Source: Chitinophagales bacterium (GTDB lineage: Bacteria > Bacteroidota > Bacteroidia > Chitinophagales > LD1). Taken from it: 64,000 nucleotides of DNA. Position 1 is the stretch's first letter; each line of letters starts with the position of its first letter. The DNA lies in contig JAEUVA010000034.1 of NCBI GenBank assembly GCA_016787045.1, positions 1 to 64,000 on the forward strand, given 5' to 3'. The notes beneath the pieces are model-generated. The model worked only from the letters and a program-made list of their open reading frames with translations. It was not told where the DNA came from and did no database searches. This document shows positions 20,806 to 44,183 of this stretch, one piece after another. The translations under genes were made by a program, and so were the position numbers.

Positions 20806-23800
20806 CTACTGCTTCACAAAACTCTTCACTGCCGTTTTGCCGCTGGTGGTTTTGATGTGGATGAAGTAAGTGGCTTCAGCTAAAATGGAAGTAGCGAGTT
20901 GCAAGTTGCGAGTTGCGAGGTTGGATTGAGTGATGATGATTCTTCCCGTTACATCGGCAACTTGAATACTTTGAATTTCTTCCTCGCTTTCTATGTTTAT
21001 CACATTTGTGGTTGGGTTTGGATAAATCACCGTTCTGAAACTGGCAATCTCCCCTATTCCAACTATTGTAACATTCAAGGCACTTGAAGTGTTTGAACAT
21101 CCATTAGCATCGGTTACTAAAACGGTGTAGCTGCCGTTTTGTGTTGCTGTGTAGTTTTGTGCTGTTGCATTGTTGATGTTGCCGTTATTCAACTGCCATT
21201 GGTAGCTGCTGAATGATTGTGTACTCAATGTGTTGCCACTTTGTGTAATCGTTGGTTGCGGCAGTGCATTCACCGTTAATGTGAGTGTTACGATAGAATC
21301 GCAACCGCCTACGCTCACCAAAGTATCGAGGTATTGACCTGCCTGTGTAAGTTGCTGACCATTGAAGGTGTAGCTTTGCCCTTGGCAAATGGCTTGACTA
21401 ACACTTCCGGTTACAAAACTGTTTACGGTTAAGTTCAGCATGATGAAACTATCGCAACCCAAGGTGGTTTGCAGGGTATCAAAATACTGACCTGCTTGTG
21501 TGAGTTGTTGCCCTTTGAAGGTGTATGATTGACCTGTGCAGATTCCTGCATTGATGGTGTTTTCTATCTTGCTTAATACTGTAAGATCAAGTGTAATCAC
21601 AGAATCGCATCCTACACTGTTTGATTCAGTTCTGTTGTAACTACCGGATTGAGTAAGTGTTTGGTTACCAAAAACAAAACTCTCTCCAAAGCAAACTGTT
21701 GCAGCAAATGAACTTGCACTATTGAGTTTTATTGTAACCGTTTTGCTGGTGGTAGAAGAGCAGTTTCCGTTGCTCACAGTTACAGTGTAGGTGGTTGTTT
21801 GTGCAGGTGAAACTGTGATGGAAGCGTTGCTCCCTAATCCGTTTGCCCAAGCATAGCTATTGCCACCAGTAGCGGTGAGGGTAAAAGTATTGCCTTCACA
21901 AACAGAACTTACACCACTTATGCCTGCGGTAGGTGTGGTTTGCACACTAACTGTTTGCGATGCAGTAGCGGTGCAGTTGCCTGCGCCTGTTACCGTTACA
22001 GAATAAGTAGTGTTTGTGCTTGGCGAAACTGTTACACTCGCATTGGTGCCAAGTGAATTACTCCACACATAGCTGTTGCCACCGCTTGCTGTTAATGTTA
22101 TATTCAACCCTGAGCATACCGTAGTTGGTCCGCTGATTTGGGCATTTACAGTGTTTACCGTTACTGCTACTACCAACGAGGTATCTGCTCCGCAAGAGTT
22201 GGAAACAATACAACGGTAATTTCCTGCATCTACTGCTACTGATGAAGCGATACTGTAAGTAGCTGTATTAGAACCATTGCCCGATAAATTTACTCCACCT
22301 TTCTGCCACTGGTAGGTGATGTTGTTTCCGGTAGCTGTTACAGAAACACTAAACGGCTGACCTCCGCATACTGCAACGGCAGATGGCTCTTGTGTAATAT
22401 CCGGTGCAATACATGGTGCGGGTAAATTGATGCGGGCTGTGTAAACATCGTAGTTGACTGCATTATTAGTGAGTGCAGTTAAACCATCAAAATTGGTTTG
22501 TAAACTGTTGCCTGAACCTACCATATAAATGGTGTTACCAACCGCAAGCACATCGCTCGCATAATCATCCTGAAAGCCACCGGCACGCTGAAATTTATCC
22601 CAAGTTCCAGAGGTTTTGCTTAACCTGCCAATAAACATATCGTTGCCCCCGGCATTGGTGTAAGTGTTTCCGGCTACTGTAACTTGTGAGCCGGTCATAT
22701 AACCACACACCACCGGCAGGTTTGCAGAATCAAGCGTAACGTTATTGAAAAATATTTGGGTGTTGGTGTTGTAGAAAAAAACCGTATCGGCTGCGGCATT
22801 GTATTTAATCAATGCACCGGTGGTAGTGCCCTGTGTGCAAGCCAAATAAATACGATTATCAGTTTTATCTACTGCCAATCCATTTACCACACCACCAAAA
22901 AAGCCCGTAACAACCGGATGATTAAACGCATTTATCCCCAATAAAATGGCACCGTTTGTGGCAGAAACTCTTGCTAAAAATGCTTTTTTGGAATTAGCGC
23001 TTGTAATGCCGCCAGAAACTGCTGTGCTGCCGAGTGGTCCTTGCAACGACATGTTGCTTACAGTACCTGTCCATTCACCGGTGGCTACCACATTTCCCTG
23101 TCCGTCAAACTCCAGATTGTTGCAGGTGGCCGGTCCTTGCACCGTTCCTAATGGTTTCACTCTTACTGCCCACTGGTAATTTCCCAAGCTGTCATACTTG
23201 GCAATGTATCCGTCATTGATGTCGGTAGTAAACTTATTAGAGAAACCATCGGCATCGGTGAGGAATGAATTTGCATTTTGATGACAGCGACCACCTATAA
23301 AAATAGTAGCTCCATCGGGCGATACGAGTACGGCATCGCCTGTATTTTGAGAGGTGGGTCCTGCAGAATAGGTCAAGCGATAAGCCCATGCCCAGTTGCC
23401 ATCGCTTCGCATTTTGGCTATGAACATAGAGCGCGTTTGATCGCCTTGTATGGTTTTTGTGCCAAATGTAAGTGTGCCGTTAAAATAGCCGGTTACATAG
23501 GCATTGCCCTGCGCATCCACATCTAAAGATGTAAATGCACTTTCACCGGTTCCGGTCGGAACAATTGGCGGTGAATAAGTACCGTTGGTTTCATCTTGAA
23601 TAGCAATCCATCCGCGGCTACCTACCACACCACTAAAAGAGTGTGCACCAAATGTAGCCGATGGAGAAGTAACCCACCCACAGGTGTAAATAAAACCGCC
23701 CGAACCTTTTTTAATGCTCACTCCAAAGTCAGCAGAAGTGCCGCCTGCTTTGCGTGCCCATGCCCAGTTTTGAGCGGTAGTTTGTAAAGTTGTAATCAGT

Positions 23801-23829
23801 ACCGTAAGAAAAAGCAGAATGTACTTCAT
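20806..23829 (-). CDS. T9SS surface protein with propeller, Ig-like and PKD-like repeats
   Basis: The start chosen is ATG 23829 (MKYILLFLTVLITTLQTTAQ, a signal peptide). The frame also reaches TTG 23853, but that lies in the conserved leader. The 1007-residue product has a propeller-like first half with GNAYVTGYFNGTLTFG and similar blades, an Ig-like domain (ITYQWQKGGVNLSG...GNYRCIVSNSCG), two copies of the 72-residue repeat (SGPTTVCSGLNITLTASGG), three C-x-G-x-S repeats with GCDS (ICTGQSYTFKGQQLT), an Ig-like domain, and a type A sorting domain (IYPNPTTNVI...FVKQ). The promoter carries the family A direct repeats. It is probably controlled by the kinase/regulator pair at 25562-29257, and is a surface protein of unknown target. 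Confidence 0.92.
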   Translation of the reverse strand: MKYILLFLTVLITTLQTTAQNWAWARKAGGTSADFGVSIKKGSGGFIYTCGWVTSPSATFGAHSFSGVVGSRGWIAIQDETNGTYSPPIVPTGTGESAFTSLDVDAQGNAYVTGYFNGTLTFGTKTIQGDQTRSMFIAKMRSDGNWAWAYRLTYSAGPTSQNTGDAVLVSPDGATIFIGGRCHQNANSFLTDADGFSNKFTTDINDGYIAKYDSLGNYQWAVRVKPLGTVQGPATCNNLEFDGQGNVVATGEWTGTVSNMSLQGPLGSTAVSGGITSANSKKAFLARVSATNGAILLGINAFNHPVVTGFFGGVVNGLAVDKTDNRIYLACTQGTTTGALIKYNAAADTVFFYNTNTQIFFNNVTLDSANLPVVCGYMTGSQVTVAGNTYTNAGGNDMFIGRLSKTSGTWDKFQRAGGFQDDYASDVLAVGNTIYMVGSGNSLQTNFDGLTALTNNAVNYDVYTARINLPAPCIAPDITQEPSAVAVCGGQPFSVSVTATGNNITYQWQKGGVNLSGNGSNTATYSIASSVAVDAGNYRCIVSNSCGADTSLVVAVTVNTVNAQISGPTTVCSGLNITLTASGGNSYVWSNSLGTNASVTVSPSTNTTYSVTVTGAGNCTATASQTVSVQTTPTAGISGVSSVCEGNTFTLTATGGNSYAWANGLGSNASITVSPAQTTTYTVTVSNGNCSSTTSKTVTIKLNSASSFAATVCFGESFVFGNQTLTQSGSYNRTESNSVGCDSVITLDLTVLSKIENTINAGICTGQSYTFKGQQLTQAGQYFDTLQTTLGCDSFIMLNLTVNSFVTGSVSQAICQGQSYTFNGQQLTQAGQYLDTLVSVGGCDSIVTLTLTVNALPQPTITQSGNTLSTQSFSSYQWQLNNGNINNATAQNYTATQNGSYTVLVTDANGCSNTSSALNVTIVGIGEIASFRTVIYPNPTTNVINIESEEEIQSIQVADVTGRIIITQSNLATRNLQLATSILAEATYFIHIKTTSGKTAVKSFVKQ

Positions 23830-23850
23830 GTGTATGAATTTTGTTTGGCA

Positions 23851-23919
23851 CAAAACTCATACGCGCAGTTCTTAAAACAGTACACGATTTCACGAAACCC
23901 CTGTTTTGGTTTCATGAAC
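23851..23919 (-). promoter_or_regulatory. Family A direct-repeat operator and promoter of the 20806-23829 gene
   Basis: On the minus strand, GTTCATGAAA and TTTCGTGAAA (plus-strand 23910-23919 and 23888-23897) lie 22 bp apart. A TTTG -7 candidate is at 23851-23854, 46 bp from the proximal repeat, followed by the leader GCCAAACAAAATT and the ATG. The block 23883-23922 is nearly identical to 25501-25540. Paired direct repeats at two-turn spacing are typical of LytTR regulator sites; the binding itself is inferred. Confidence 0.6.
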
Positions 23920-23983: not shown

Positions 23984-25447
23984 TTACTGCTTCGCAAAAC
24001 TCTTTACTGCGGTTTTGCCGGTAGTGGTTTTGATGTGAATGAAATAAGTGGCTTCAGCTAAAATGGAAGTAGCGAGTTGCAAGTTGCGAGTTGATAGGTT
24101 ATTCTCAGCAATGATGATTCTTCCGGTTACATCAGCAACTTCAATGGCTTGAATATCTTCACTGCAATCTATGTGCAACACATTTGAAGTTGGGTTCGGA
24201 AATATCACACTGCTGAAATCTGCAACCTCACTTAAGCTACTTACTGTAACATTTACTGCAGCCGATGTGTTGCTGCACCCATTGGCATCGGTTACTCTTA
24301 CTGTGTAGCTGCCGTTTTGTGTGGCAGTGTAGTTTTGAGCAGTGGCTCCGTTAATGTCGTTGCCATTTAACCTCCACTGATAACTGCTGAATGTTTGGGT
24401 ATTGAGCGTGTTAGCATTTTGGACAATAGTAGGTAGAGGTAAATCATATACGGGAACTACTACACTTGCCATTGCACCATAGCACCCTGATGCATCAGTT
24501 ACTTTTACGGTATAAGTAGAGGAGAATGTCGGAGTAGCGGTTGCTGTTGCAGTGGTGGAGGTAATAGCCGGATTACCGTTACCTGCATCCCAGCTATAGT
24601 TGGCTACAGCGCCAGAAGGTGTGGCTGTTAGTGTTACCGGGTTTCCAACGCAAACACTCGTTGGAGATGCGCTAAGCGTTACGCCCAGTGTAACTGGTGA
24701 AGTTGTAGTAGGATCGGGTTCATTATACAGGCAAGTAACTTCTGCATCGGTTAACGCCTTGTTGTAAATATTAATATCGTCTATTGCACCTAAAAAGCCG
24801 TTGAAGCCATTTGACCGCAATCCGATAAGAAATGGAGTGTTTGAAGAAGAATTTGCATAAACGCCAGTGAATGTCTGGTTATATTTTAGCGCACCATTCA
24901 CATATATTTTGTGTCGGTTATTATCATTTTTGTTGTAAGTAAACACAATATGATGCCACTGCCCGGTTGCATAGGATGTAGTGTCATAGTCACCGTTAGC
25001 GTTTACAACGCGAATGGCAACAAGGGTATTGGCGCTGTTTGTTAGTTCTAACAAAAACTGCTCCTTAAAGGGGTCGGAATTCCACCGAGCCAAAATGCAC
25101 CGGTTTGATGTAAGACTATTGGCATCGGGTTTTACCCACACCGAAAAGCTAACGGCATCCATGTTGTTCAAATCAAAAAAATCGGGAGTTTGAGGAGAAC
25201 TGGTGTTGTAATAATAAAACGCTGCGCTACCATTAAAGTAATAGGCATGATTGGCGTTGCCAAAACGGTCGGCAGTTGGTGTAGGATTTGAAAAACCAGT
25301 TAAGCCATCATACAATGAGTGGTCAATGTTTACTTCATTGTCTTTGCTTCCGAGGGTAAAATAAAATTTACCCACCAAGCCAAGATTAATTTGAGCTTGA
25401 GCAACAAAAACGATAGCCGAGAATAAAAGTGTAAATAGTTTTTTCAT
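23984..25447 (-). CDS. T9SS surface protein with LamG-like and PKD/Ig-like domains
   Basis: The 487-residue product has a signal peptide (MKKLFTLLFSAIVFVAQAQ), then a LamG/concanavalin-like jelly roll at about residues 25-235, with WVKPDANSLTSN, WHHIVFTYNKND and LGAIDDINIYNKALTDAEV as typical strands. After it come a PKD-like domain (CVGNPVTLTATPSG), an Ig-like domain (SSYQWRLNGNDINGA) and a type A sorting domain (IFPNPTSNVL...FAKQ). LamG domains often bind carbohydrate, but the ligand is unknown. The gene lies 114 bp downstream of the LytTR regulator and has family A repeats in its promoter. Confidence 0.92.
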   Translation of the reverse strand: MKKLFTLLFSAIVFVAQAQINLGLVGKFYFTLGSKDNEVNIDHSLYDGLTGFSNPTPTADRFGNANHAYYFNGSAAFYYYNTSSPQTPDFFDLNNMDAVSFSVWVKPDANSLTSNRCILARWNSDPFKEQFLLELTNSANTLVAIRVVNANGDYDTTSYATGQWHHIVFTYNKNDNNRHKIYVNGALKYNQTFTGVYANSSSNTPFLIGLRSNGFNGFLGAIDDINIYNKALTDAEVTCLYNEPDPTTTSPVTLGVTLSASPTSVCVGNPVTLTATPSGAVANYSWDAGNGNPAITSTTATATATPTFSSTYTVKVTDASGCYGAMASVVVPVYDLPLPTIVQNANTLNTQTFSSYQWRLNGNDINGATAQNYTATQNGSYTVRVTDANGCSNTSAAVNVTVSSLSEVADFSSVIFPNPTSNVLHIDCSEDIQAIEVADVTGRIIIAENNLSTRNLQLATSILAEATYFIHIKTTTGKTAVKSFAKQ

Positions 25448-25468: not shown

Positions 25469-25537
25469 CAAAAAACAGCTACAAATTTCTTCCAACAACA
25501 CACGATTTCACGAAGACCCTGTTTTGGTTTCATGAAC
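25469..25537 (-). promoter_or_regulatory. Family A direct-repeat operator and promoter of the 23984-25447 gene
   Basis: On the minus strand, GTTCATGAAA (25528-25537) and CTTCGTGAAA (25506-25515) lie 22 bp apart, and TTTG (25469-25472) is 46 bp from the proximal repeat, the same geometry as at 23851-23919. The leader GCCAAACAAAATTC precedes the ATG. The operator lies directly downstream of the regulator gene 25562-26347, its likely ligand. Confidence 0.6.
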
Positions 25538-25561: not shown

Positions 25562-26347
25562 CTAAATGATTGACGACTTACCGCCTGCTATACGTATTTC
25601 AGCAAAGCTGTCTTCAAAATCTTTTTTGCGCTCTTTAGATACAGGTAAAGCAGTTTCATCTTCCATCAATATGAAGCTCTCCATTCTGTTGTACTTGCGC
25701 ACATAGTTCAAATTCACCAAGTGCGAACGATGAATACGGAAAAAGTTTTTACGCTTAGTAAGCATTTCTTCAAAGAATTTAATCTTTCGGCTTACCAATA
25801 GTTTTGAACCATTGCTTAAACACACATTAGTATAGGCACCCTCTGCCTGAAGCAGCACAATTTCAGAAACCTCTACAAACAAAACCCCATCACTAACAGG
25901 TAAAGCAATGCGCGAAAATTCATCGGTTTGCAAGTTGCTTTGCAACAACTCCAAACGTTGCTTCATACTATGTGCAGAAAGTTTACCCCGTAGTTTTTCT
26001 ACTGCGGTTTTCAGCTTTTCTACCTGCAAAGGTTTTAGCAAATAATCTACTGCCGAAAGCTCGAATGCCTTAACAGCATAATCGCTATAAGCCGTAACAA
26101 ACACTATTTCAAAACTCACTTCATCAAAAAATTTCAACAACTCAAAGCCATTAAACTCCAGCATTTCAATATCCAAAAAAACCACATTGGGTTGATGCTC
26201 CTTTATGGCTAACACTGCTTTGGGAACATTTGAACATTGCGCTACTACTTTTACATTGTTTACTGAAGTTTCCAGCAATGTTTCCAAAGTACGTCTTGCA
26301 TGTGCCTCATCATCCACTATTATCGCATTGATAATTTCTTCTTTCAT
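25562..26347 (-). CDS. LytTR-family response regulator (pair 1)
   Basis: The 261-residue product has an N-terminal receiver domain with acidic pocket VDDE (11-14), phospho-acceptor D59 in VVFLDIEM, T85 in FVTAYSD and K105 in DYLLKPLQ. The C-terminal half (about 150-245) is a LytTR DNA-binding domain: VLLQAEGAYTNV, FEEMLTKRKNFFRIHRSHLVNLNYV, and LPVSKERKKDF. The upstream gene on the same strand, 15 bp away, is the cognate sensor kinase, so phosphotransfer between them is expected. LytTR domains bind paired direct repeats. Such repeats occur before the next two T9SS genes downstream. Confidence 0.93.
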   Translation of the reverse strand: MKEEIINAIIVDDEAHARRTLETLLETSVNNVKVVAQCSNVPKAVLAIKEHQPNVVFLDIEMLEFNGFELLKFFDEVSFEIVFVTAYSDYAVKAFELSAVDYLLKPLQVEKLKTAVEKLRGKLSAHSMKQRLELLQSNLQTDEFSRIALPVSDGVLFVEVSEIVLLQAEGAYTNVCLSNGSKLLVSRKIKFFEEMLTKRKNFFRIHRSHLVNLNYVRKYNRMESFILMEDETALPVSKERKKDFEDSFAEIRIAGGKSSII

Positions 26348-26362: not shown

Positions 26363-29257
26363 TTAGCTGTTGAATTGAAAAATCTTCAAAATCACCTTTG
26401 TTCCTGAGGCAACATCAGCGACTGTCTTATCTTCAATTCTCATTTCAATTTTTATATGGTAATAATCACGGAGCAAACTTAATCGCTCTTCGGTGGCGCG
26501 TGTGGCAAACGACTGATGTTGTTTTCGTTTTTTGATTTCGGCTGAGGCGGCTCTGCCAATTCCATTGTCTTCAATTTCGCAAAGCAAATAGTCGGGCATT
26601 TTTGTAAATGATACAATCAGTTGCTTTTTGCCTTGTTGATGCAACAGTCCATGCTTTAGCGCATTTTCTACAAATGGCTGAATCACCATTGAAGGAATTT
26701 TCATCTCCTCGGGCTCTAAGTTTTCATCAATATTTAAGCTATAAACTAACTCACCTTCAAATCGTAGTGACTCCAATTCAAGGTAAAGCGAAAGCATTTC
26801 AATTTCAGCATCTAAGGTGATAAACTCATTGCCCGAGGCGTTTAAAACTTTACGGGTTAAATCGCTGAACTTGCCTAAATACAATTGCGCTTTTTCTGAT
26901 TTTTGTTGTATCACCAAATCCTGAATAGAGCTGAGCGCATTAAACATAAAATGCGGATTCATTTGTGCCTTTAAAGTTGAAAGCTGTGAGTTTGCCAACT
27001 TCTTTTCCAAAGCATTTCTCTTTTTGAGTGCGCGAATTCGCAAATAGAAAACTGTTGAAAGCACGCTGCCGAAAAGTAAAAACGCCAACAGATAAAACCA
27101 CCACTGCTGCCAATAGGGTTTCAGAATGGTTAGTTGCAAAGTTTCGGGTTTCATGCTTTCCACTCCGTCTTCGTTTATGGCCACAACTTCAAAAGTATAG
27201 TTGCCCGCAGGCAGCGATGGATAGCGCGCAAAGTTGCTGCTGCTGTTGGTTTCAATCCAATTGGTATCTAAACCCAACAAGCGATATTTAAAAGTAAACT
27301 CACCACGCGAACGAAATGCAATACCTCTGAAATCAATTTTTATATTATTGGATGAATATGCCAGTTCGTAATTGGCATGAAGTGTAGTGTCATGATTATT
27401 GATGTTGACATTGGTAATTGCCACAACCGGTGGAACCTTGTTTTCGGCAAGCATATTCAACGGCAGCGACACCAATCCTTTTGGCGTTGCCAGAAATATC
27501 TTGCCATCCATTATTTCAATGTCTGCAATTTCTAAAGACGGTAATCCATCAAAATGATTGAAGAGCGATGTTTGCTTTGATAGTGTGTTGTATCGGATTA
27601 AATGATGCTCGGCTGTCATCCAAAGTTCATCGGCTTTGCTTGCCAGCTTCCTTACATATCCATTGGTTATTCCAACCACCTCATTCAGCTTTTCTACTAC
27701 TTGCTTTTGATTGAATGCAATAACACCCTGGCTCATGGTGCTTACCCAAACTTTCTTATCCTCAGTCAGCAAAATATCTGTGGCAAAAATTGGTTTCCTC
27801 TCAAGCCGCAGCTCTTCTGAATTTCCATTTTCATAAACAAACAAACCGTCTGAATAGCCCACCCACAAACGTTGCATTGACTCTTCATACTTGGCGCATC
27901 GCACTCTTTTCTTTCTGAAATTACTGATGCGATCTATCTCATTATTGCGGACAACAGCTATCGTTGCATCATTCACTGTTCCGGCAAAAAAATACTGTTT
28001 ATCTATTCTAAAAAATGACTTGATGTTATCGCCATTTTTTAGAAATGATGTGCTGAGATTTTCCACGTTTACATTCCAAAAATTGTTTTGTGCCACATAA
28101 AGTTGTTGGGTTGTTGAATCAAAGTACAACTCCTGAATTTCAAAATGCGAATTGGGGAAAGCAATCGTTTTTAGCTCGCTTGTGCGCTGGTTATACTTGG
28201 ATACTTTACCATTTTGGAAACCAATAAACAAATTGGAGTTGCCATCTTTAGTAAGTTGTCTAATTCGTGTATCAGGCAATTCAGAATTCTCAGCCGTGTG
28301 TATCCACACATTCAAACTTGGCACTATGAATATACCATCCTGCAAAGTGCTGAACCAATAGTTGCCTTCGGCATCAGCCACTACATCGCTGATGCTTTTA
28401 CTTGAAAAAAACAATGTGCCGCCATACAAATCATTCAGATTCTCATCTAAGCATAATGCGCCATTACTGCTGCCTACCCAAATGTGTCCTGCATTATCCT
28501 TATGCAGCGCAAAAACTCTATCGAGCTTTGCGGGCAAATCTCTGAGCCATAGCAGAGAGTCATTGCTGAATTGCCAAATGGAATTTTTGTTTGCTCCATG
28601 TGCCAGCACCACTACTTTACCATCTACAACTTCAAAAAAAGATTGCTTGTATAAATCGCTGAATTGAGCAGGGCGATTTGACTTAATAATTGTTGACAGC
28701 TTACCGTTTTCAAAATATCCAATGCGCTCGCGTGCTGCATAATACACCCTACCATTGTTACATAAAACATCTGTGATAAAACTTAATTTACCATCTTGAT
28801 TGGCAAGTGATAAAAATTGCTTTTTACTTTTTTTAAAAACATAAATTCCCGAATCGGATGAGATATAGAAATCACCATTTTCGTCAACTGTGTAAACAGG
28901 ATAATTTGATTGTGCAATACTACGCTCAGAAGCATAGTGAAGTGAATCTCCATCCACATAAAAAAGCTGACCCGAAAAATTCTGGCACCAAACTTTTCCA
29001 TCAACGTCAATCCTAATATTAGATACTGCTCTGCTATTTTGATTTGAATTTTTGAAACTTTTGAATTCGCTGCCATCGTAATTAAACAGCCCTGCACTTG
29101 TGCCTATCCACACTAATCTATTACTATCTTGAAGCAAGTAATATACTTCATTAGAAGGTAGCCCTGCTCTATCATCTATTTGATAATAATGTGGATGCTG
29201 AGCAAAAATTAAAGCTGCAGAGAGCAGTGATAAAAAGATTAGATATAGTCGCAACAC
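26363..29257 (-). CDS. Sensor histidine kinase with extracytoplasmic propeller and Y_Y_Y domain (pair 1)
   Basis: The frame is open to 29311, but the first 18 codons are the terminator of the gene before it. GTG 29257 gives a clean signal peptide (MLRLYLIFLSLLSAALIFAQ). The product (964 residues) has two-component-regulator propeller blades (LPSNEVYYLLQDS, LVWIGTSAGLFNYDG) to about residue 620, a Y_Y_Y domain at about 650-710, one membrane segment near 725, a LytS-like His_kinase domain with NPHFMFNALSSIQ near 769, and an ATPase domain with QPFVENALKHGL. It senses an unknown periplasmic signal and should phosphorylate the regulator 15 bp downstream. No ATG is available near the start. Confidence 0.9.
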   Translation of the reverse strand: MLRLYLIFLSLLSAALIFAQHPHYYQIDDRAGLPSNEVYYLLQDSNRLVWIGTSAGLFNYDGSEFKSFKNSNQNSRAVSNIRIDVDGKVWCQNFSGQLFYVDGDSLHYASERSIAQSNYPVYTVDENGDFYISSDSGIYVFKKSKKQFLSLANQDGKLSFITDVLCNNGRVYYAARERIGYFENGKLSTIIKSNRPAQFSDLYKQSFFEVVDGKVVVLAHGANKNSIWQFSNDSLLWLRDLPAKLDRVFALHKDNAGHIWVGSSNGALCLDENLNDLYGGTLFFSSKSISDVVADAEGNYWFSTLQDGIFIVPSLNVWIHTAENSELPDTRIRQLTKDGNSNLFIGFQNGKVSKYNQRTSELKTIAFPNSHFEIQELYFDSTTQQLYVAQNNFWNVNVENLSTSFLKNGDNIKSFFRIDKQYFFAGTVNDATIAVVRNNEIDRISNFRKKRVRCAKYEESMQRLWVGYSDGLFVYENGNSEELRLERKPIFATDILLTEDKKVWVSTMSQGVIAFNQKQVVEKLNEVVGITNGYVRKLASKADELWMTAEHHLIRYNTLSKQTSLFNHFDGLPSLEIADIEIMDGKIFLATPKGLVSLPLNMLAENKVPPVVAITNVNINNHDTTLHANYELAYSSNNIKIDFRGIAFRSRGEFTFKYRLLGLDTNWIETNSSSNFARYPSLPAGNYTFEVVAINEDGVESMKPETLQLTILKPYWQQWWFYLLAFLLFGSVLSTVFYLRIRALKKRNALEKKLANSQLSTLKAQMNPHFMFNALSSIQDLVIQQKSEKAQLYLGKFSDLTRKVLNASGNEFITLDAEIEMLSLYLELESLRFEGELVYSLNIDENLEPEEMKIPSMVIQPFVENALKHGLLHQQGKKQLIVSFTKMPDYLLCEIEDNGIGRAASAEIKKRKQHQSFATRATEERLSLLRDYYHIKIEMRIEDKTVADVASGTKVILKIFQFNS

Positions 29258-29935: not shown

Positions 29936-32900
29936 CTATTGCTTGATAAACATTTTCTGTGCGTTTCCTTTAGCAGTTTTGGCATTGAGCATATATGTGC
30001 CTTCCGCCAAATCAGATACTCTAATCTTTGTAATTTCTCCGCTTACAAATATCACTTGCTCTCCGGCTACATTGTAAACCTCTACGCTTTCTACCAGTTC
30101 ATCACAAACTATCACGAGTATTTCTGATGTAGGGTTAGGGTAAACATTGAAGTTCATTTCGGCAGATACATTTTCAATACCCACTACTGTTACACTAAGT
30201 GCTGCTGATGTGTTGCTGCACCCGTTCGCATCGGTTACTCGTACTGCATAGCTTCCGCTTTGTGTAGCAGTAAAGTTTTGTGTAGTTGCACCGCTAATAT
30301 CGCTACCATTTAGTTGCCATTGGTAACTGTTGAATGTTTGTGTGCTCAAGGTATTTCCGCTTTGCGTAATGGTTGGGGCAGGTAAGGCATTTACGGTTAT
30401 TGTAATATCATTTGATGTTTCGCTGCCGCACGCATTGCTTGCTGCCACTGTGTATGTTTTGGTACCTGGTGTAAGGTTGGTGGCCGTGTAGCTATTGCTG
30501 TTGGTGCCCACATTTGCATTGCCATCTTTCCACTGGTAGCTTAAGTTATCACCGGTAGCAGTTACGTTGAGCGTTACGCTTTCTCCGGCACATACACTGG
30601 TACTGCTGGCGGTTGGCTGCTGGGTAATTTGCAATGGCTGCTCAACACCAAGTGTAAGCGTTACGGTGCTGTCGCAACCGTTTATACTGATAAATACTTC
30701 ATTATATGTACCGGCTGTGGTTAGCGTTTGGTTGCCAAAAGTATAAGCGCTGCCATCGCAGATACTTACATTAAACGAAGATGTCAATTCTGGCAATACA
30801 GTCAATTGCAGTGTTATTACACTATCGCAACCCGCGCTGTTTACTTCTATCTTGGTGTAGTTGCCGCTTTGGGTCAGTGTTTGGGCATCAAAAGTGTAGC
30901 TACCGCCAAAGCAAATGGTTTCGCTAAAGCTAAATGAAGTTGGTTGTTTTACCGCTACCGTTTGCGAAGCAGTGGCCGAGCAGTTAGCGCCTATGCTTAC
31001 AGTTACAGTGTATGTAGTGTTTGTTGTTGGCGAAACGGTGATAGCTGAAACAGTTACGCTGTTACTCCATTCGTAGGTATTTCCTCCGTTGGCGGTTAAT
31101 GTTACGCTGCTTCCTAAACAAACTTCTGTTGGGCCTGAAATACTTGCTGTTGGTGCAGATTGAACACTCACTGATTGTGATGCAGTAGCACTACAACCGT
31201 TGGCATCGGTTACTGTTACTGTGTAAGTAGTGTTTGCAGTTGGTGTGAATGTGGCTTGTGCATTAGTTCCACCTGAGTTACTCCAGGCATAAGATGTGCC
31301 TCCACTTGCAGTTAGCGTTGCTGATAATCCCGAGCAAATTGTTGTAGGTCCGTTGATGCTTGCGGTAACTGTGTTTACGGTAACTAATCTTGATGCTGTT
31401 GCCGAGCAGTTGTTTGCCGCAGTAACAGTAACCGTGTAGGTTGTGCTTGTTGTTGGAGCGAAGGTTGCTTGTGCGTTGCTGCCTCCGCTATTACTCCACA
31501 CATAAGTTCCACCACCGCTGGCAGTAAGTGCTTGCGATGCACCATTGCAGATACTTGCGGTTGCAGGTGTGATTGCCGCAGTAGGATTTGTATTTACAGT
31601 AACCAACCGTGAAGCTGTTGCCGAGCAGTTGTTTGCACTTGTAACAGTTACAGTGTAAGTAGTGCTTGTAGTTGGAGTAACTGTTTTTGCTGCTCCGCTT
31701 CCTAAGCTGTTGCTCCATGCGTAAGTGCCTCCGCCACTTGCTGTGAGGTTTGCACTTGCTCCTTCGCAAATAGTAACTGTGGCAGGGGTGATGGCTGCGG
31801 TTGGAGTTGCGTTTACAGTTATTGCAATGGGCAATCTTGTTGATTCACAACCGGTGCTTACAAATCTTACTACTGCATAATAAGTTGAATCTGCATTTAA
31901 AACAGGTGTGGTAAAACTTGTTCCGGTGAATATTGAAGTGCCGCCTGTGGCAACATTGTACCACACTATAGCGGCTGCGGCTGTAGTGCTTGCAGAAAGC
32001 GTAGTGGTTTGTCCGCTGCAACGGGTAAGGTTTGCAGTGGGTGTGGTGTTGGTTGGAGCATTTGGCACAACATTTACAGTGATGCCTATTTGAGTGCGTG
32101 TAGATGAACAATTGCCAACTTTACTTGCAACAAAATATGCAGCTCCGTTTTGCAACACAGGGGTTGTGTAACTATTGCCGGTTGCAAGTGGGCTTCCGCC
32201 TGTTGGGTCGGCAAACCATTCCAATGTGCCGCTTCCTGATGCCGTAAGCACGGTAGAATTACCTTGACACACACTCAAATTCGCGCTTGGTGTGGTATTG
32301 GTTGGTGCAGCAGGTGGAGCAACTACAGTAACCGCAATGGGCAATCTTGTTGCTGAAACACAGCCAGTAGTCAAGTTTTGCATATCCACATAAAAAGTGG
32401 CATTTGAACTCAAACTGCTTGTAGGTATGTTTATGGATGTGCCGCTTCCCAACAAGTTTGGTGTGGCGGTTCCTGTTGGAACGTTCCACCAATTCACTTG
32501 AAAACCTGCTCCGGGATTAACTACCGAAAGCGTGGTACCACTACCTTGGCATACCGTTAAATTTGCCGATGGAGTGTTGCTGGTTGGCACTGCCGGCAAA
32601 GGCAATACAGTAACAAGTATTGCTGTGCGGCTTGACAAACATCCATTGTTGTTTGACCTTACATAAAAAGTTGAATCTTGATTTAGCGAAGGTGTAATGA
32701 AAGTTGAACCGGTGCCTAATACAGTTCCTCCGGTGGCTACATTAAACCACTCTAAAATTCCTGTTCCCGATGCTGAAAGAAAAGCCGATTGCCCAACGCA
32801 AGTTTGTTGGTTTTGTGTAGTAGTGGTATTGGTTGGTGCAGATGGTGGTGTTGAAACATTAACAGTTAAAGTTAATGGAGGCAAAGAGCCACATCCATTT

Positions 32901-34537: not shown

Positions 34538-34604
34538 CAAAACTGTTCTTCGCTCATTCAAAATCTGCTTCCGCTTTACGAAATACTGTATCTGTTTTAC
34601 GAAA
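34538..34604 (-). promoter_or_regulatory. Family B direct-repeat operator and promoter of the 29936-34519 gene
   Basis: On the minus strand, two copies of TTTCGTAAA (34596-34604 and 34575-34583) lie exactly 21 bp apart. TTTG at 34538-34541 is 45 bp from the proximal repeat, then the leader TCAAACAAAATTT and the ATG. The same box type at the same 21-bp spacing lies between the kinase and regulator of pair 2 (37523-37553). Confidence 0.6.
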
Positions 34605-37487: not shown

Positions 37488-37553
37488 CAAACTTACATGA
37501 TGAGTTACAATATGCGGCTCAATTTTGTAAAACAAATTGGCTATTTGGTAAAA
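37488..37553. promoter_or_regulatory. Family B direct repeats and kinase promoter in the divergent spacer
   Basis: TTTTGTAAAA (37523-37532) and TTTGGTAAAA (37544-37553) are direct repeats 21 bp apart, like those before 34519. Toward the kinase, TAAGTTTG (37488-37495, minus) matches the -7 consensus, about 44 bp from the proximal box. This suggests that the regulator controls its own pair. Confidence 0.55.
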
Positions 37554-37559: not shown

Positions 37560-38327
37560 ATGACTAGGAGTGAAATAAACAACAAAATCGCACTTGTGAA
37601 GGCCATAATAATTGACGATGAGAGCAAAGCCCGGTTGTTGCTCAGTGCTATGCTGCGCGAACATTGCCCTCAGGTAAATGTGGTAGCCACTTGCGAAGAT
37701 TTGCCGTCTGGCATTAAAGCTATACGAAAAGAACAACCTGCATTAATTTTTTTAGACATAGAAATGCCCGGACACAGTGGGCTTGAATTACTTGATTTTT
37801 TTGCAGAGGACGAGATTAATTTTGATATCATATTTACTACAGCTTACAGTGAATATGCTATTCGTGCTTTTAAAATGAGCGCTATTGATTATCTGCTAAA
37901 ACCCATACAACCTGCAGAGTTAATCAAGGCCGTGGAGCGCGCTGAAAAAAAACAAACACAGTTGCTCTCCTACCAAATGCTGAAAGAAAACCTTTCCGGC
38001 AAAACGAAAAAAATTGTGCTGAACCAAACCAAAGGAGTGGAGTTTTTTAACACTGCCGATGTACTTTTTATGAAAGGCGATGGCGCTTATACCGAGATAT
38101 ATAAGCGCGATGGCAGTAAAATTGTGGCTAGCAAAAATCTGAAACAGTTTGAAGAAATGCTGGACGACCAACCCCAGTTTATGCGCGCCCAAAAATCATA
38201 TATCATCAACACCGAACACGTAAGTTCCCTCAGCAAAGTAGATGGTGGATTGCATGCTGTAATACAAGACCACAGCGTACCCGTATCGCCCGACAAGGCA
38301 AATCTGCTACTGGAAAAACTTCAATAA
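37560..38327 (+). CDS. LytTR-family response regulator (pair 2)
   Basis: The 255-residue product has a receiver domain with acidic IDDE, phospho-acceptor D66 in LIFLDIEM, TAYSEYA, and K in DYLLKPIQ, then a LytTR domain (VLFMKGDGAYTEIY, FEEMLDDQPQFMRAQKSYIINTEHV). The start is uncertain. ATG 37560 lies only 6 bp from a regulatory box, and GTG 37596 gives MKAIIIDDESK, a more typical regulator start. It is divergent from its kinase, unlike pairs 1 and 3. Its likely targets are the family B sites. It is convergent with the beta-helix gene and shares its terminator. Confidence 0.92.
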   Translation: MTRSEINNKIALVKAIIIDDESKARLLLSAMLREHCPQVNVVATCEDLPSGIKAIRKEQPALIFLDIEMPGHSGLELLDFFAEDEINFDIIFTTAYSEYAIRAFKMSAIDYLLKPIQPAELIKAVERAEKKQTQLLSYQMLKENLSGKTKKIVLNQTKGVEFFNTADVLFMKGDGAYTEIYKRDGSKIVASKNLKQFEEMLDDQPQFMRAQKSYIINTEHVSSLSKVDGGLHAVIQDHSVPVSPDKANLLLEKLQ

Positions 38328-38410: not shown

Positions 38411-41299
38411 TTATTGTTTCAAGAATCTTTCGCTCGCCACATTTCCATTGCTGGCTTTTAACTGAATAGTGTAAACGCCCTCTGAAAAATTGCCGACATT
38501 AAGTTGCATTTTACCTGTTGACAAGGTATTTATTTCCGCTACGGTTCTTCCGTGCATATCAAACACTTTGATGCTTGCAATTTCATCCCGGCTTTCAATA
38601 TAAAGCACACCGCTTGTAGGGTTTGGGTAAATACTCATCTGTGTGTTGGCTATTTCTTCTAACCCAATACATAATTCCGCTACTATAATAGAGGAACTAA
38701 CTGCCGTACATCCCACATTATCAGTAGCAGTTACTATGTACATTGTTGTACTGGATGGAGATGCAGTAATAGTTGAAGTAGTAGCTCCTGTGCTCCAGGC
38801 ATAGCTTGCTGCACCGTTGGCAATAAGCGTAATACTTTCTCCGGCACAAATGGTATCTGTACTTACATTTAGGGTAAGTGGAATTGCCGGTGGATTAGGC
38901 ACATTGATATTGCCCGATACTGTACAACCACCTTGTGAAACAGATATGGGCAACACAGCTCCGGCATTAACGGTGATAGTTACAGAATCGGCACTTGGTT
39001 TCACTAATCCTACTGCATCATACTCTACCCAATCAGTAGCTATGTCATTGGCAATAGCCCAACGCACTTGGTCAACAGTCATAACTGATGGCAGGTTCAC
39101 CGCAAAAATAGTTGCTACCTCTGGGCCTGCTGCTGCTGTGCCGGTATATACTGTAGTCCAGTTTCCCGAAGGGTATTCACGCACATACACCGTATCAATG
39201 TACCCGGGGGCGTTTGTTTCGTAAATCAACAACTGGCTGGCGGTAACAGGTGTGGTATAGCCCACTACTAAAAACTCGCGTTGATTACCGTAATCGTCCG
39301 ATGTCCAAGCGGTAACTATATCTCCATAATCCGGATAGGTGTTTGGCTCGCCAAGCAGTTGGTATGCTGACCAATTGCCGGGTGATGTGTTGTATTCTGT
39401 ACTGAATGCAATTACGGTATCTGCCCAAGCAGTATCACCTCCAAAACTGTAATTGTTTCCACCTATCGTAAAATCTATAGCCGTGTTGGCGGTGAGTGTA
39501 ATGGTGCCGTTGGTGGCATTGTTGCAAAGCAGAGTGGTAGAGGATATGGTGGGAAAAGTAACTTGCGGTTGTACTGTAAGCGAAGTATTCACAACACTAT
39601 CGCAGCCAAAATAGTTGGTATAGTTACCACTTACGGTGTATGTGCTTGCTCCAACGGTATAGGACTCGCCAAAACAAATGACTACGGTATTATTCCGCAC
39701 AGGCACATTCACATCATTTATCAATATCTCCACCGTACTATCGCAACCAAAATACTGTGTGTAATAGCCGCTGCTGTTGTAAACAATGCCATTGATGCTT
39801 ACGGTACTATCAGGGCATATTGAATAGTAGCTATATGTAACAGGCGCAGCGAAAAGCGAAACAGCTATCTGTATAATGCTATCGCAATTGTAATTGATGG
39901 TGTAGTTTCCGGCTTGTGTATATATGGAGTCGTTGTAGGTTACCGTATCGCCATAGCAGATGGTAAAATTTTTATTGATAACAGGTGCGCTGTTATTAAT
40001 CACAATAGTATCTTTTGCTACACATTCTTCGCTATCAAATGCCGTGGCAATAAAAGTGTAGTTACCAAAGTAACTCAACGCAGCACCGCATATCCACTCA
40101 TTTTCCCCCTGTACAAACCAATTGCCGGTAGTGGGTGCAGTACCGCCTGTAATTACATAACTCAGGTTATTGAGTTGCGCTTGACACGCTACAGCCGGTG
40201 TATTTATAGATATGGAAAATCCGGCACATGGATTTACTCCATTATACTCATGCGAGCCAATGTCGGCCGTATTACTACGCGTGTAATTGCGCTGATCGGT
40301 AGCCGGTGCAGCACTAGCATCCGCAGCATCAATAGCAGGGCTGTTAGCAACTAATGCGTGAGTAAAGGTGTAATGGCCGTTATCGCTCAGTGTGGTATTT
40401 ATCACACCCGATGCAGCTGCGCCATACACGTTTCCGGTGGTTACTCCGCCAATAGTTGCGCCCACGGTATCAGTAAAGATATTGTGGCCGTATGTAGAGG
40501 TAAAATTGCCAAACACGTTGTTCCCGATAAGTGCTGCAGAGTTACCTACAAAAATACAATTGCTGATATCACAAAAATTTCCGCCCTGTGTGCTTATAGC
40601 ACCACCACGGCTCGCACTATTATTATTGTAAAAGGTAGAATTTCTCACCACCATTTTTCCTCCTTGATGGTTTTTTACCGCGCCACCACCACCGCTACCA
40701 CTGGCACTCACGCTGGTATTGCCGCTAAAGGTGCAATTGACAATGCTCATAAAGCCACCATTGTTGAATGCTGCAGCACCACCTTCGCCTCCGGCATCTG
40801 TAGTAATGTTGCCGTCAAATGTACATCCGTACAAATACACAGAATCAAAATTGTTAAACACACCGCCTGCCTGATAAGAAGCGCTACCGTTGGTAAATCG
40901 GCAGTTATTCAAAATACTGGTGCCACCGCCATTGCTGCTCATCCATGCTGCTCCAAAAGAACTGTTTAACTGACTAACAAACGTAAGATTATTGAATGTA
41001 AAATGCTTGCCCACCAACGATTGCCCAAAGTTGAAATAGTAGCCGCTAAATCTTGCGCTATGATCTGCCGGTGCGTTTAGCACCAATGGCTCAAGAATAG
41101 TGGGCAGGTAATACTGCCCTCCGGTACAAAGATTAATAACATGTGGATTACTGTTGCTACTCGGAGTTGCATTGGCATCTGAAATAGCTGCGTCCAATTC
41201 TGCCTGATTACTTACCGTATAAGTATTGGCCCGCATACCTGCTGAGCAAAAACACAGCAGGAGCAAAAGCAGTTGTTTAGTAAAAGTTTGATTCATCAT
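38411..41299 (-). CDS. T9SS surface protein with parallel beta-helix domain
   Basis: The 962-residue product has a signal peptide (MNQTFTKQLLLLLLCFCSAGMRA), then a right-handed beta-helix at about residues 28-345 with typical rungs (ILNNCRFTNGSA, VYLYGCTFDGN, MSIVNCTFSGN, MVVRNSTFYNN, DISNCIFVGN) and the closing segment SPAIDAADASAAPATDQR...ADIGSHEYNG. Three GCDS/NCDS repeats follow (TICYGDTVTYNDSIYTQAGN), then a region with strand-rich EWxVxxY patterns, a PKD-like domain (CAGESITLIANGAASYAWSTG), and a type A sorting domain (IYPNPTSGVL...FLKQ). Beta-helix domains often handle polysaccharide, but no catalytic residues can be named. The promoter carries family C repeats. Confidence 0.9.
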   Translation of the reverse strand: MMNQTFTKQLLLLLLCFCSAGMRANTYTVSNQAELDAAISDANATPSSNSNPHVINLCTGGQYYLPTILEPLVLNAPADHSARFSGYYFNFGQSLVGKHFTFNNLTFVSQLNSSFGAAWMSSNGGGTSILNNCRFTNGSASYQAGGVFNNFDSVYLYGCTFDGNITTDAGGEGGAAAFNNGGFMSIVNCTFSGNTSVSASGSGGGGAVKNHQGGKMVVRNSTFYNNNSASRGGAISTQGGNFCDISNCIFVGNSAALIGNNVFGNFTSTYGHNIFTDTVGATIGGVTTGNVYGAAASGVINTTLSDNGHYTFTHALVANSPAIDAADASAAPATDQRNYTRSNTADIGSHEYNGVNPCAGFSISINTPAVACQAQLNNLSYVITGGTAPTTGNWFVQGENEWICGAALSYFGNYTFIATAFDSEECVAKDTIVINNSAPVINKNFTICYGDTVTYNDSIYTQAGNYTINYNCDSIIQIAVSLFAAPVTYSYYSICPDSTVSINGIVYNSSGYYTQYFGCDSTVEILINDVNVPVRNNTVVICFGESYTVGASTYTVSGNYTNYFGCDSVVNTSLTVQPQVTFPTISSTTLLCNNATNGTITLTANTAIDFTIGGNNYSFGGDTAWADTVIAFSTEYNTSPGNWSAYQLLGEPNTYPDYGDIVTAWTSDDYGNQREFLVVGYTTPVTASQLLIYETNAPGYIDTVYVREYPSGNWTTVYTGTAAAGPEVATIFAVNLPSVMTVDQVRWAIANDIATDWVEYDAVGLVKPSADSVTITVNAGAVLPISVSQGGCTVSGNINVPNPPAIPLTLNVSTDTICAGESITLIANGAASYAWSTGATTSTITASPSSTTMYIVTATDNVGCTAVSSSIIVAELCIGLEEIANTQMSIYPNPTSGVLYIESRDEIASIKVFDMHGRTVAEINTLSTGKMQLNVGNFSEGVYTIQLKASNGNVASERFLKQ

Positions 41300-41325: not shown

Positions 41326-41391
41326 CAAATCTACCGGTACCGGCTACGCTAACCGCATTTATGTGACGAAATACAACTGTAGAGTGATAAG
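41326..41391 (-). promoter_or_regulatory. Family C direct-repeat operator and promoter of the beta-helix gene
   Basis: TAGATTTG (41326-41333, minus) is an exact -7 match. The proximal box GTGACGAAA (41363-41371 on the plus strand) is 45 bp away and the distal box GTGATAAG (41384-41391) is 21 bp further. The stretch TTTATGTGACGAAATAC (41358-41374) recurs with two changes before the pair 3 kinase (43369-43385). Confidence 0.6.
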
Positions 41392-41400
41392 ATGCAGCAG

Positions 41401-43188
41401 CTATTTCTTTAGCGGAAAAACCAACTTAAACTGAGTACCGGCATCGGATGTAACACTAAGCACACCACGCATTTGCCTGGAAAGCTCGCTAACAATACGC
41501 ATACCCAATGAGGTTGAACTTTTAATATCGAAACCGTCTGGCAGACCCACTCCATTATCAGAATAGCAAAGCGAGCATTGACCATTCAATAAGTCGGTAA
41601 TCACAATTCGAATTTGCCCCCCGGATTTGTTGATTTGAGCATACTTGATAGAGTTAGTAATCAGTTCATTCAAAATAACACCCAGCGGAATAGAATGATC
41701 CATACTTAATTTGAAATGTGGCGGATACGCACTGCATTGAAAATCTATATGCGTTGCATTAAAAACTTGTTTCAGATGTGTATAGAGCTGCTCGATATAC
41801 TCTTCCAGATAAATGGCCGACAACGCTTCTTGCGAGTACAATTTTTGATGGATAAGTGAAATACTCTTTACCCGGTTGTGGCTTTCGCGGAGCGCAGCTA
41901 TGGCCTTTTCATCGGTAAGTGTGTTGGCCTGCAAATTGAGCAGTGATGAAACGATTTGCAAATTGTTTTTTACCCGGTGATGAATCTCCAACATCAAGGT
42001 GTCTTTTTCTTGTGCCTGCCTGTCTATCAAGGCATTTTTCTCTTGCAACTCGCGGTTGGCGTGCTCTTGCTTTTTGTGTGCGCGGATTATCAACCAAAGC
42101 AGTATTATCAAAAGCAAAAGCACAACAGATGCAGCAGCTACTATAAGACGCAGCCACCGGTTCTCGCTTGCTTTTTCGTTAGTTTCATACTTCACTTCTA
42201 ACTCGCGTTGTGCCAATTCTGCGCGTGCCTGCACATTGGCAATACTTTGCTGCCGGGTTTCATTAAAGATAGAATCGTTCCATCTATCCTGCTGTTGTTT
42301 AAACTCCAATGCTTTCTCCAACTGCTTTTTTTCTTTTGCCATATCGCTGAGCAGCCGGTATGCTTCGCAGATATATATCTTTGTTTCATACTTTGTAGCG
42401 TCTTGCAATAATCGGTAAACCAACAGTTCTGCTTCGCTCCATCGCTTTTGTTTGACCAATAATGCACACAAACTACTCAGCGGCCCCATGGCATTGATGG
42501 GCCGCTTTAGCGAATCTTGCACAGATAGGCCATCGCGCAAAAAAGATTCTGCCGTTTGGTACCGACCCAATTCTTCATAAATGTTTCCGGCACCTGTCAT
42601 CACCACTGCATATTCATAGCCGCGCTGCGCACTTTGGCCGGCATAGTTGAGCGCGCTTTGCAACATCTTCTCCGTAGAGTCTCTTTTGTTCGCATGCATA
42701 TACTCTGCAGCTAAATTGATAGCCACTAATCCTGCAAATGCAAAATTTTTCATTTGCAATGCTGCGTGTAATGCACGATGGTAATAGTGTAAGGTTTGCC
42801 TTCTATCACGACTAGCCGCAGCATACACAGTGGCAATGTTGTTGCAGGTAGATGCCGTTAGCTTGGTTTCTTTCCCTAGTTCTGCAACTCGCAACGCATC
42901 AAAATAGTACTGCAACGAGCGGTCGTAATCGCCCATATCCTGATAAAAACCGGCTATCAAAGCCAAGCAACTGGCTTGGTAGTAAGCACTTTTAGCTTTT
43001 ATAGCAAATGCAATAGCTGTATCGTAGTGCGCTAATCCTTGTATGCGTTTATTGTGAATGATGTAAAGCAACGCTTTGCTCCGATACGCATCGGCTAACA
43101 ACAAGGCAGAGCCACCGGATAGCTGTATCTCATCAATAATTAAGCGCTCTGCCTCGGCACTATCGGTAAACAAAAGTTTATACGCCAA
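41401..43188 (-). CDS. HisKA_2-type sensor histidine kinase with TPR domain (pair 3), 5' end interrupted
   Basis: The open frame (595 residues from TTG 43188) has TPR-like hairpins to about residue 330, a coiled coil, one membrane segment (LRLIVAAASVVLLLLIILLW), a HisKA_2 phospho-acceptor region (LEIHHRVKNNLQIVSSLLN) and an ATPase domain (GVILNELITNSIKYA, DNGVGLPDG). The natural gene almost certainly starts at ATG 43323, but an in-frame TGA at 43243-43245 separates a good signal peptide from the rest, and no ATG follows before the TPR region. The ORF as it stands would give a protein without export signal, placing the sensor domain on the wrong side. The partner regulator is encoded upstream (43449-44183). 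The kinase may be inactive in this strain, or the TGA may be a sequencing error. Confidence 0.8.
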   Translation of the reverse strand: MAYKLLFTDSAEAERLIIDEIQLSGGSALLLADAYRSKALLYIIHNKRIQGLAHYDTAIAFAIKAKSAYYQASCLALIAGFYQDMGDYDRSLQYYFDALRVAELGKETKLTASTCNNIATVYAAASRDRRQTLHYYHRALHAALQMKNFAFAGLVAINLAAEYMHANKRDSTEKMLQSALNYAGQSAQRGYEYAVVMTGAGNIYEELGRYQTAESFLRDGLSVQDSLKRPINAMGPLSSLCALLVKQKRWSEAELLVYRLLQDATKYETKIYICEAYRLLSDMAKEKKQLEKALEFKQQQDRWNDSIFNETRQQSIANVQARAELAQRELEVKYETNEKASENRWLRLIVAAASVVLLLLIILLWLIIRAHKKQEHANRELQEKNALIDRQAQEKDTLMLEIHHRVKNNLQIVSSLLNLQANTLTDEKAIAALRESHNRVKSISLIHQKLYSQEALSAIYLEEYIEQLYTHLKQVFNATHIDFQCSAYPPHFKLSMDHSIPLGVILNELITNSIKYAQINKSGGQIRIVITDLLNGQCSLCYSDNGVGLPDGFDIKSSTSLGMRIVSELSRQMRGVLSVTSDAGTQFKLVFPLKK

Positions 43189-43323
43189 TGCACCACTAAT
43201 GCGGGCTTTTGCGGTATCTGAGTTTGCAGCAATGAGTTGTACTCATAAATCCTCTACCGTTTGTGCATTAGAGGCACAAAACAGACAAAGCATAAAAACG
43301 GTAAGTATTTTACGGGCAGTCAT
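43189..43323 (-). pseudogene. 5' end of the pair 3 kinase gene, cut off by an in-frame TGA
   Basis: From ATG 43323 the frame reads MTARKILTVFMLCLFCASNA, a textbook signal peptide, then QTVEDL, TGA (43243-43245), and continues in the same frame with VQLIAANSDTAKAR into the TPR domain without any other break. One base substitution (for example CGA or AGA to TGA) explains it. This is the start of 41401-43188. Confidence 0.8.
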
Positions 43324-43373: not shown

Positions 43374-43403
43374 GTGATGAAATGCAATTTGGTAGTGATG
43401 ACA
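43374..43403 (-). promoter_or_regulatory. Family C direct repeats upstream of the pair 3 kinase
   Basis: GTGATGAAA (43374-43382) and GTGATGACA (43395-43403) lie 21 bp apart, in the 125-bp spacer between regulator and kinase. A TTTG (43345-43348, minus) is 37 bp from the proximal box, a few bases short of the spacing at the other promoters. This suggests autoregulation of the pair. Confidence 0.5.
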
Positions 43404-43448
43404 TGTGAAGTGTATTCGGTATAGAAACTATGTAAAAACCTAACTCGC

Positions 43449-44183
43449 TTATTGCAGCCGCTTAATTTTATCAAAGAGTTCATCTTTAAAATTTCTACTA
43501 AGAGGTAAATTGTGTTTTGCCAGTTTGACTTCGGTATGGCTTAGCTCGTCTATTTTAGAGAGTTGTATAATGTAACTTTTGTGTATCTGCATAAACTGCC
43601 CTTGCGGTAGATTTATCATCATTTCGCGAAATGTGGAGCGAATGATATGCTTGGCGTTTTCTGTATAAATGAAAATGTAGTTGCCATCGCTCTCTAAAAA
43701 CAGAATGTCTGCCAAACGTACTTTTACAAACCGAGTATCAGTTTTTACAAATATGCTATCCGTTAACGGCAAATTAGATTTATCGGTTTCCGCATTAACC
43801 GATGTGTTACCTGCAAAATTTGCAAGTGCTACTTCTATACTGGTAAACAAATCTTCTTGCTCAAATGGCTTTACCAAATAGCCGTTAGGTTTCAATGCAG
43901 CAGCTTGGGCAACTGTATTTTTATCGCTATGCGAAGTGATAAACACAAATGGCAATTTGTACTTCTCCAGCAATAACTTTCCTAAATCCAAACCGGTATT
44001 TGGCCCATTCAAATTGATATCTGCCAGCACTATATCTGGCAACTGTTCATCCAAAATTTTTACTGCTTCATCATAACTGTACGCTGCGGGCAATACTTGA
44101 TAACCAATGCGGCTGAGCATATCAGCCATATCCATGGCTACCAACGATTCGTCTTCTACAATCAGTATTTTAACTTCCGTCAT
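43449..44183 (-). CDS. LytTR-family response regulator (pair 3)
   Basis: The start chosen is ATG 44183 (MTEVKILIVEDESLVAMDMADML). The frame upstream to 44264 reads through the terminator of the gene before it. The 244-residue product has a receiver domain (acidic VEDE, phospho-acceptor Asp in DIVLADINLNG, VFITSHSD, and Lys in GYLVKPFEQ) of a type usually paired with HisKA_2 kinases, and a C-terminal LytTR domain (ILFLESDGNYIFIYT, FMQIHKSYIIQLSKI, LPLSRNFKDEL). The kinase follows on the same strand. Its likely targets are the family C sites at 41363-41391 and 43374-43403. Confidence 0.92.
   Translation of the reverse strand: MTEVKILIVEDESLVAMDMADMLSRIGYQVLPAAYSYDEAVKILDEQLPDIVLADINLNGPNTGLDLGKLLLEKYKLPFVFITSHSDKNTVAQAAALKPNGYLVKPFEQEDLFTSIEVALANFAGNTSVNAETDKSNLPLTDSIFVKTDTRFVKVRLADILFLESDGNYIFIYTENAKHIIRSTFREMMINLPQGQFMQIHKSYIIQLSKIDELSHTEVKLAKHNLPLSRNFKDELFDKIKRLQ

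Follow-up and report, generated by a model that had tools for sequence, protein, structure and literature searches.

We analysed a window of 64,000 nucleotides from an uncultured Chitinophagales bacterium (assembly GCA_016787045.1, contig JAEUVA010000034.1, positions 1 to 64,000), in which three two-component systems with LytTR-type regulators lie beside genes for cargo proteins of the type IX secretion system (T9SS). These are very likely three locally wired circuits, in each of which the sensor would activate the adjacent cargo gene from an operator positioned like that of AgrA. The linkage between each operator and its neighbouring regulator is strongly supported by sequence comparison, and one sensor probably controls one surface protein. 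Control of surface-protein expression had been proposed in a first-pass annotation of the same DNA, and the two things that speak for it are gene position and conserved promoter geometry. The host genome (3.6 Mb, 99.6% complete) encodes six LytTR proteins, three of them in the window; statements made here about the whole genome are the outcome of pattern searches.

The genes and boxes were found where the first-pass annotation had placed them. In circuit 1 the response regulator RR1 (25562..26347, minus strand) and the kinase HK1 (26363..29251, minus) are followed by cargo1b (23984..25447, minus; LamG and PKD domains) and cargo1a (20806..23826, minus; Ig domains), both predicted targets of this circuit. 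HK1 has a periplasmic Reg_prop propeller, a Y_Y_Y domain and a LytS-type His_kinase domain (all domain names are those of Pfam). Circuit 2 has a kinase of the same build, HK2 (34621..37482, minus; Reg_prop, Y_Y_Y, His_kinase), leading into its predicted target cargo2 (29936..34519, minus; LamG and Ig_7 repeats). In circuit 3, RR3 (43449..44183, minus) and HK3 (41401..43188, minus; TPR, HisKA_2 and HATPase) lead into the predicted target cargo3 (38411..41299, minus). Three kinase/regulator pairs are thus present as had been described, except that the second is not co-directional, RR2 (37560..38327, plus strand) being transcribed divergently from HK2. Response_reg and LytTR score above the cut-off in RR1, RR2 and RR3, giving each an N-terminal receiver (REC) and a C-terminal LytTR domain, and the type IX sorting domain Por_Secre_tail scores above the cut-off at the C-terminus of all four cargo proteins.

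Each cargo promoter, on the minus strand, carries two boxes whose spacing agrees with the earlier description (22, 22, 21 and 21 bp). Operator 1 reads TTCATGAAA-N13-TTCGTGAAA both at cargo1a (23888..23918, with the -7 TTTG at 23851-23854) and at cargo1b (25506..25536, TTTG 25469-25472). Operator 2 of cargo2 (34575..34604, TTTG 34538-34541) reads TTTCGTAAA-N12-TTTCGTAAA, and operator 3 of cargo3 (41363..41392) reads TCTTATCAC-N12-TTTCGTCAC, with the -7 element TAGATTTG and its TTTG at 41326-41329. Measured from the first base of the proximal box, the TTTG starts at 43, 43, 42 and 42 bp for cargo1a, cargo1b, cargo2 and cargo3, which is one common register; the distance of 45-46 bp given earlier holds if counted to the end of the TTTG, its start lying at 42-43 bp. 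The gap between the boxes is 12 or 13 bp and the proximal box ends about 33 bp ahead of the TTTG. This is the arrangement by which LytTR operators are defined, namely two direct repeats of about 9 bp with a gap of 11-13 bp, just upstream of a promoter. All four promoters fit the shared geometry that had been claimed for them, but the cargo1a and cargo1b promoters are near-duplicates, so that they amount to three independent cases, and in cargo3 the distal box is degenerate. One core base (TTCRTGAA versus TTCGTAAA) and the 22- or 21-bp spacing are essentially all that separates boxes 1 and 2.

A genome search for the three box pairs, as the first-pass annotation had advised, returned exact pairs only beside their own regulator: two sites for operator 1 (the cargo1a and cargo1b promoters), one for operator 2 (the cargo2 promoter) and two for operator 3 (the cargo3 and HK3 promoters). 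When the pattern was relaxed to two TTCRNNAA boxes with a spacing of 21-22 bp and TTTG at the set distance, the genome gave exactly three matches, at the cargo1a, cargo1b and cargo2 promoters. This pattern is informative for the host genome only; as a census over 396 genomes of the order it was rejected as too permissive, chance matches being many and control reads frequent too. A scan for sigma-70 -35/-10 elements was uninformative, as expected for the phylum. Directly after the -7 element, the leaders of cargo genes (23826-23850, 25448-25468 and 34520-34537, minus strand) carry a CCAAACAAAATTC-like sequence, which is also present in several further genera of the family and is possibly an initial-transcribed or translation-enhancing sequence.

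Comparison with orthologous loci, likewise advised earlier, bore the boxes and their spacing out as conserved in relatives. It covered 61 genomes, namely 60 relatives and the host genome (G000). Operator 3 has exactly two sites in each of the five genomes that carry RR3 (G000, G020, G023, G025 and G028), the first at cargo3 and the second at the HK3 promoter, and is absent from the 56 other genomes searched. Operator 2 is found beside the RR2 orthologues of G000, G008, G018 and G049, and two isolated stray matches lie in other places; operator 1 is found beside the RR1 orthologues of G000, G008 (69% identity) and G018 (67%), apart from a few further matches that are palindromic or single. The genome G018, from another genus, has the same succession of genes, cargo-RR1-HK1-cargo-cargo-cargo-HK2-RR2; its RR1 cargo carries operator 1, and each of its three circuit-2 cargos carries operator 2. 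Since the operators track the orthologous regulators in relatives, including G018, box type goes with the regulator rather than with the genome. Circuits 1 and 2 coexist in G000, G008 and G018, and all three preserve the difference in boxes and in spacing (22 against 21 bp). Aligned circuit-1 promoters share as fixed blocks both boxes, the mid-spacer, the TTT of the -7 element and the leader CCAAACAAAAT; for circuit 3 the fixed blocks include much of both boxes, the CATAAA that closes the proximal box, and TAG-TTTG. Cargo3 is conserved next to RR3 and HK3 in four genomes. In other genera (loci L053-L056) circuit 3 is found by itself, after a DnaJ-like gene, which speaks for its separate arrival in this cluster. 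The RR2 orthologue of G008 (locus L048, 9519-10290) is frameshifted in a T-run with its operators retained, either by sequencing error or as a recent pseudogene.

The first-pass annotation found the boxes of the cargo promoters but overlooked two more pairs, one in front of HK3 and one in the RR2/HK2 intergenic region. The pair at HK3 (43374..43403, minus strand), TGTCATCAC-N12-TTTCATCAC, lies upstream of the kinase start, occurs in all four RR3-bearing relatives and suggests self-regulation of circuit 3. Between RR2 and HK2, about 37 bp before the RR2 ATG, lies an operator-2-like pair (37523..37552, plus strand), TTTTGTAAA-N12-TTTGGTAAA, which has a match at the same place in G008 and a more degenerate one in G018. 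This pair overlaps the translation start region of RR2; it is likely to serve autoregulation, and its placement makes it more likely that it damps RR2 expression. An operator for the HK1 and RR1 genes themselves was looked for at the locus and none was found.

To see the arrangement more widely, LytTR regulators of this type and their surroundings were collected from the named genomes and from the order. Intergenic box pairs near these regulators number 40 at a spacing of 21 bp and 4 at 22 bp, against a mean of about 1.5 for each other spacing from 15 to 30 bp; a few of the loci share a genome. Of 37 such promoters, chosen without regard to the TTTG, 30 have it starting at 42 or 43 bp from the proximal box. 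The genes downstream are T9SS cargos in this family and several others, and elsewhere secreted lipoproteins, small secreted proteins or the signalling genes themselves. Cassettes of this kind also occur in cultivated relatives, among them Marinoscillum, Lacinutrix and Winogradskyella. Genes with a C-terminal sorting domain (CTD genes) are enriched beside these regulators in the named genomes (18/154 versus 12/494, p = 1.4e-5). Box class, defined by two variable core bases, clusters on a regulator tree built without the contact-loop columns: it changes 9 times, against a mean of 21 in shuffled data, and none of 1000 shuffles was as low. Regulator distance and box distance are also correlated once near-copies are removed (Mantel r = 0.39, p = 0.001). 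At some distant loci box orientation is ambiguous (TTCATGAA is a palindrome), and the A-tract after the distal box was used to orient them. The link that had been proposed between box types and adjacent LytTR regulators is therefore upheld, the boxes following the orthologous regulator and their class clustering on its tree. At one locus (L059, 13836-14242) a LytTR domain stands alone in a protein of about 110 aa, which has no receiver domain and has its own 21-bp box pair upstream; next to it lies a complete circuit whose boxes are of the same type.

The regulators themselves differ where they are expected to touch DNA. RR1 and RR2 are 36% identical and their DNA-contact loops differ, the contact positions being HRS with KERK in RR1, QKS with PDKA in RR2 and HKS with RNFK in RR3. 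The motif FhRhHRS, which belongs to the LytTR DNA-binding domain (PMC4227749), is matched exactly in RR1 (FFRIHRS) and partially in RR2 (FMRAQKS) and RR3 (FMQIHKS), which diverge at the contact positions. Wherever box position 7 is G, the regulator has Arg at the site equivalent to RR1 residue 240 (12 of 12 cases). A recognition code in which R240 reads G7 and K240 reads A7 is not claimed, given that six Arg regulators use other bases at box position 7 and that there are only about three phylogenetically independent contrasts; we treat it as a lead. The RR1-type circuits have the 22-bp spacing in the three genomes that also hold RR2 and 21 bp in their outgroups.

In the mechanism that we propose, a membrane kinase with a periplasmic sensor (Reg_prop and Y_Y_Y in HK1 and HK2, TPR in HK3) would phosphorylate the adjacent LytTR regulator, and a dimer of the regulator would bind the two direct-repeat boxes, which at 21-22 bp lie two helical turns apart, at about -50 and -72. 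The bound regulator would then recruit RNA polymerase to the adjacent T9SS cargo gene, whose promoter has the TTTG -7 element; each sensor would thereby switch on its own surface protein, and in circuits 2 and 3 signalling genes carry boxes as well. LytTR proteins that have been tested bind a pair of 9-bp direct repeats, separated by 11-13 bp, just upstream of the -35 element (PMC6193735), and the AgrA repeats are centred near -60 (PMC4227749). In flavobacteria the promoter element TAnnTTTG lies at -12 to -5 (PMC9723704), which would put the boxes described here, near -50 and -72, at the position of a LytTR activator. What the sequences show directly is the gene order, the domains, the boxes with their geometry, their uniqueness in the genome, their conservation and their covariation with the regulator; binding, phosphorylation, activation rather than repression, the signal and insulation are inferred.

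Several observations weigh against this reading. Sorting-domain genes are common in the genome (150 among the matches listed, mostly with no tie to LytTR), a number that makes a T9SS machinery likely but for the same reason makes adjacency of such a gene to a LytTR pair weak evidence when taken alone. Two CTD genes adjacent to the circuits (29327-29788 and 44271-48137) have no boxes, and the HK3 operator has no TTTG at 42/43 bp. HK3 also has an in-frame TGA (43243-43245) directly behind its signal peptide, the full open reading frame (ORF) of which would begin at ATG 43320, so that circuit 3, as assembled here, may be broken or rely on a start further downstream; in the relatives L053-L056 the gene reads without a stop across this region, and the TGA may be a genuine mutation or an assembly error.

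The frequency of CTD genes, by which some adjacency is expected, is also what could be said for another conserved factor, or an alternative sigma factor, reading the boxes while the LytTR neighbours are coincidental. Such coincidence is very improbable: genomes without an orthologue of the regulator have no box pairs, barring the few one-off matches, box class tracks the LytTR tree, and the repeat length and spacing equal those of tested LytTR sites (PMC6193735). The boxes might instead be promoter cassettes copied along with duplicated cargo genes, marking descent and not operators of the adjacent regulator. In favour of this are the near-duplicate cargo1a and cargo1b promoters, the nearly identical three circuit-2 cargo promoters of G018 and the CTD duplication and recombination in the cluster. 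Yet the boxes and spacing persist although their flanks have diverged, the same geometry with other boxes recurs throughout the phylum next to cargo and lipoprotein genes that are unrelated, and the same boxes stand at the HK3 and RR2 promoters, which do not belong to cargo genes; inheritance by copying hence has little chance of being the explanation.

More weight is due to the possibility that the regulators do read the adjacent boxes yet lack insulation, RR1 and RR2 each also binding the boxes of the other, so that the cluster forms one overlapping network. Boxes 1 and 2 are near-identical (one core base and 1 bp of spacing), degeneracy is general among LytTR sites, and there is precedent in the LytTR paralogues PlnC and PlnD, which are reported to share sites (PMC2714321). 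The low identity of RR1 and RR2, their different contact loops and the separate boxes and spacings held in G000, G008 and G018 argue against it, and on balance we consider such an overlapping network rather unlikely. Insulation of circuits 1 and 2 is plausible because the differences in box and spacing are maintained where the two circuits coexist. Beyond the window, three separately wired circuits may be one instance of a Bacteroidota-wide wiring of one sensor to one surface protein, with LytTR circuits beside secreted targets, a fixed geometry (box, 12-13 bp, box, about 33 bp, TTTG) and paralogues kept apart by coordinated changes of contact loop, core base and 21/22-bp spacing; we offer this generalization tentatively, as one that could well prove too broad.

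The genes around the circuits bear marks of rearrangement. The ORF at 29327-29788 (minus strand) encodes a 153-aa chimera in which an HK1-like kinase N-terminus is fused in frame to a cargo 3' end; its cargo part is 87% identical in nucleotides to the end of cargo1a, and it looks like a collapsed remnant of a fourth kinase-to-cargo module. At 10700-19183 (minus) lies a 2827-aa cargo gene of long internal repeats, whose 3' end is 73-82% identical to the 3' ends of the genes at 20806, 23984 and 29327, which suggests that sorting domains were duplicated or gene-converted between it and the cluster cargos. Directly upstream of RR3, at 44271-48137 (minus), is a 1288-aa T9SS cargo gene that has no box pair; proximity to a circuit alone therefore does not imply membership.

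Systems of the AgrA, HdrR/BrsR (Streptococcus mutans) and PlnC/PlnD kind share with those described here the LytTR domain and the two direct repeats of about 9 bp, 11-13 bp apart and just upstream of the promoter. They are REC-LytTR proteins as here, except for the HdrR type, which has no REC, and autoregulation is common among them. Our systems differ in their Bacteroidota TTTG -7 promoter, in having adjacent T9SS cargo genes as targets and in placing three paralogous circuits with different boxes side by side. The LytTR Regulatory Systems (PMC6193735) also combine a LytTR regulator, direct repeats and self-regulation, but their partner is a membrane inhibitor and not a kinase, whereas here it is a His_kinase or HisKA_2 kinase and the regulator has a receiver. 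PorXY-SigP of Porphyromonas gingivalis (PMC4800418, PMC8050853) is likewise a two-component system tied to type IX secretion; however, PorX is not a LytTR protein and acts on machinery genes through SigP, whereas all three regulators here end in LytTR, as judged from their domains, and adjoin individual cargo genes. The hybrid two-component systems of Bacteroidetes resemble HK1 and HK2 in their Reg_prop and Y_Y_Y periplasmic sensor with a kinase, and in local control of neighbours. They carry the receiver and an AraC-type helix-turn-helix in the same protein, whereas HK1 and HK2 end after the kinase and the LytTR regulators are separate genes.

LytTR circuits and their repeat geometry are thus already known, and it is the dedication to T9SS cargo that appears to be undescribed: a literature search for LytTR regulators tied to T9SS cargo genes found no such paper, with subscription journals mostly outside its coverage, and some papers matching LytTR and type IX secretion merely list LytTR proteins. 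The known regulation of T9SS concerns the secretion machinery (PorXY-SigP), though T9SS cargos are very numerous in Bacteroidota. A conserved and readable operator grammar would allow a dedicated sensor to be assigned to individual surface proteins from sequence. It would also supply naturally occurring LytTR paralogues, together with operators that match or mismatch them, on which the separation of two-component circuits could be studied, and it would yield a list of activator-dependent promoters in a phylum with little-studied transcription factors.

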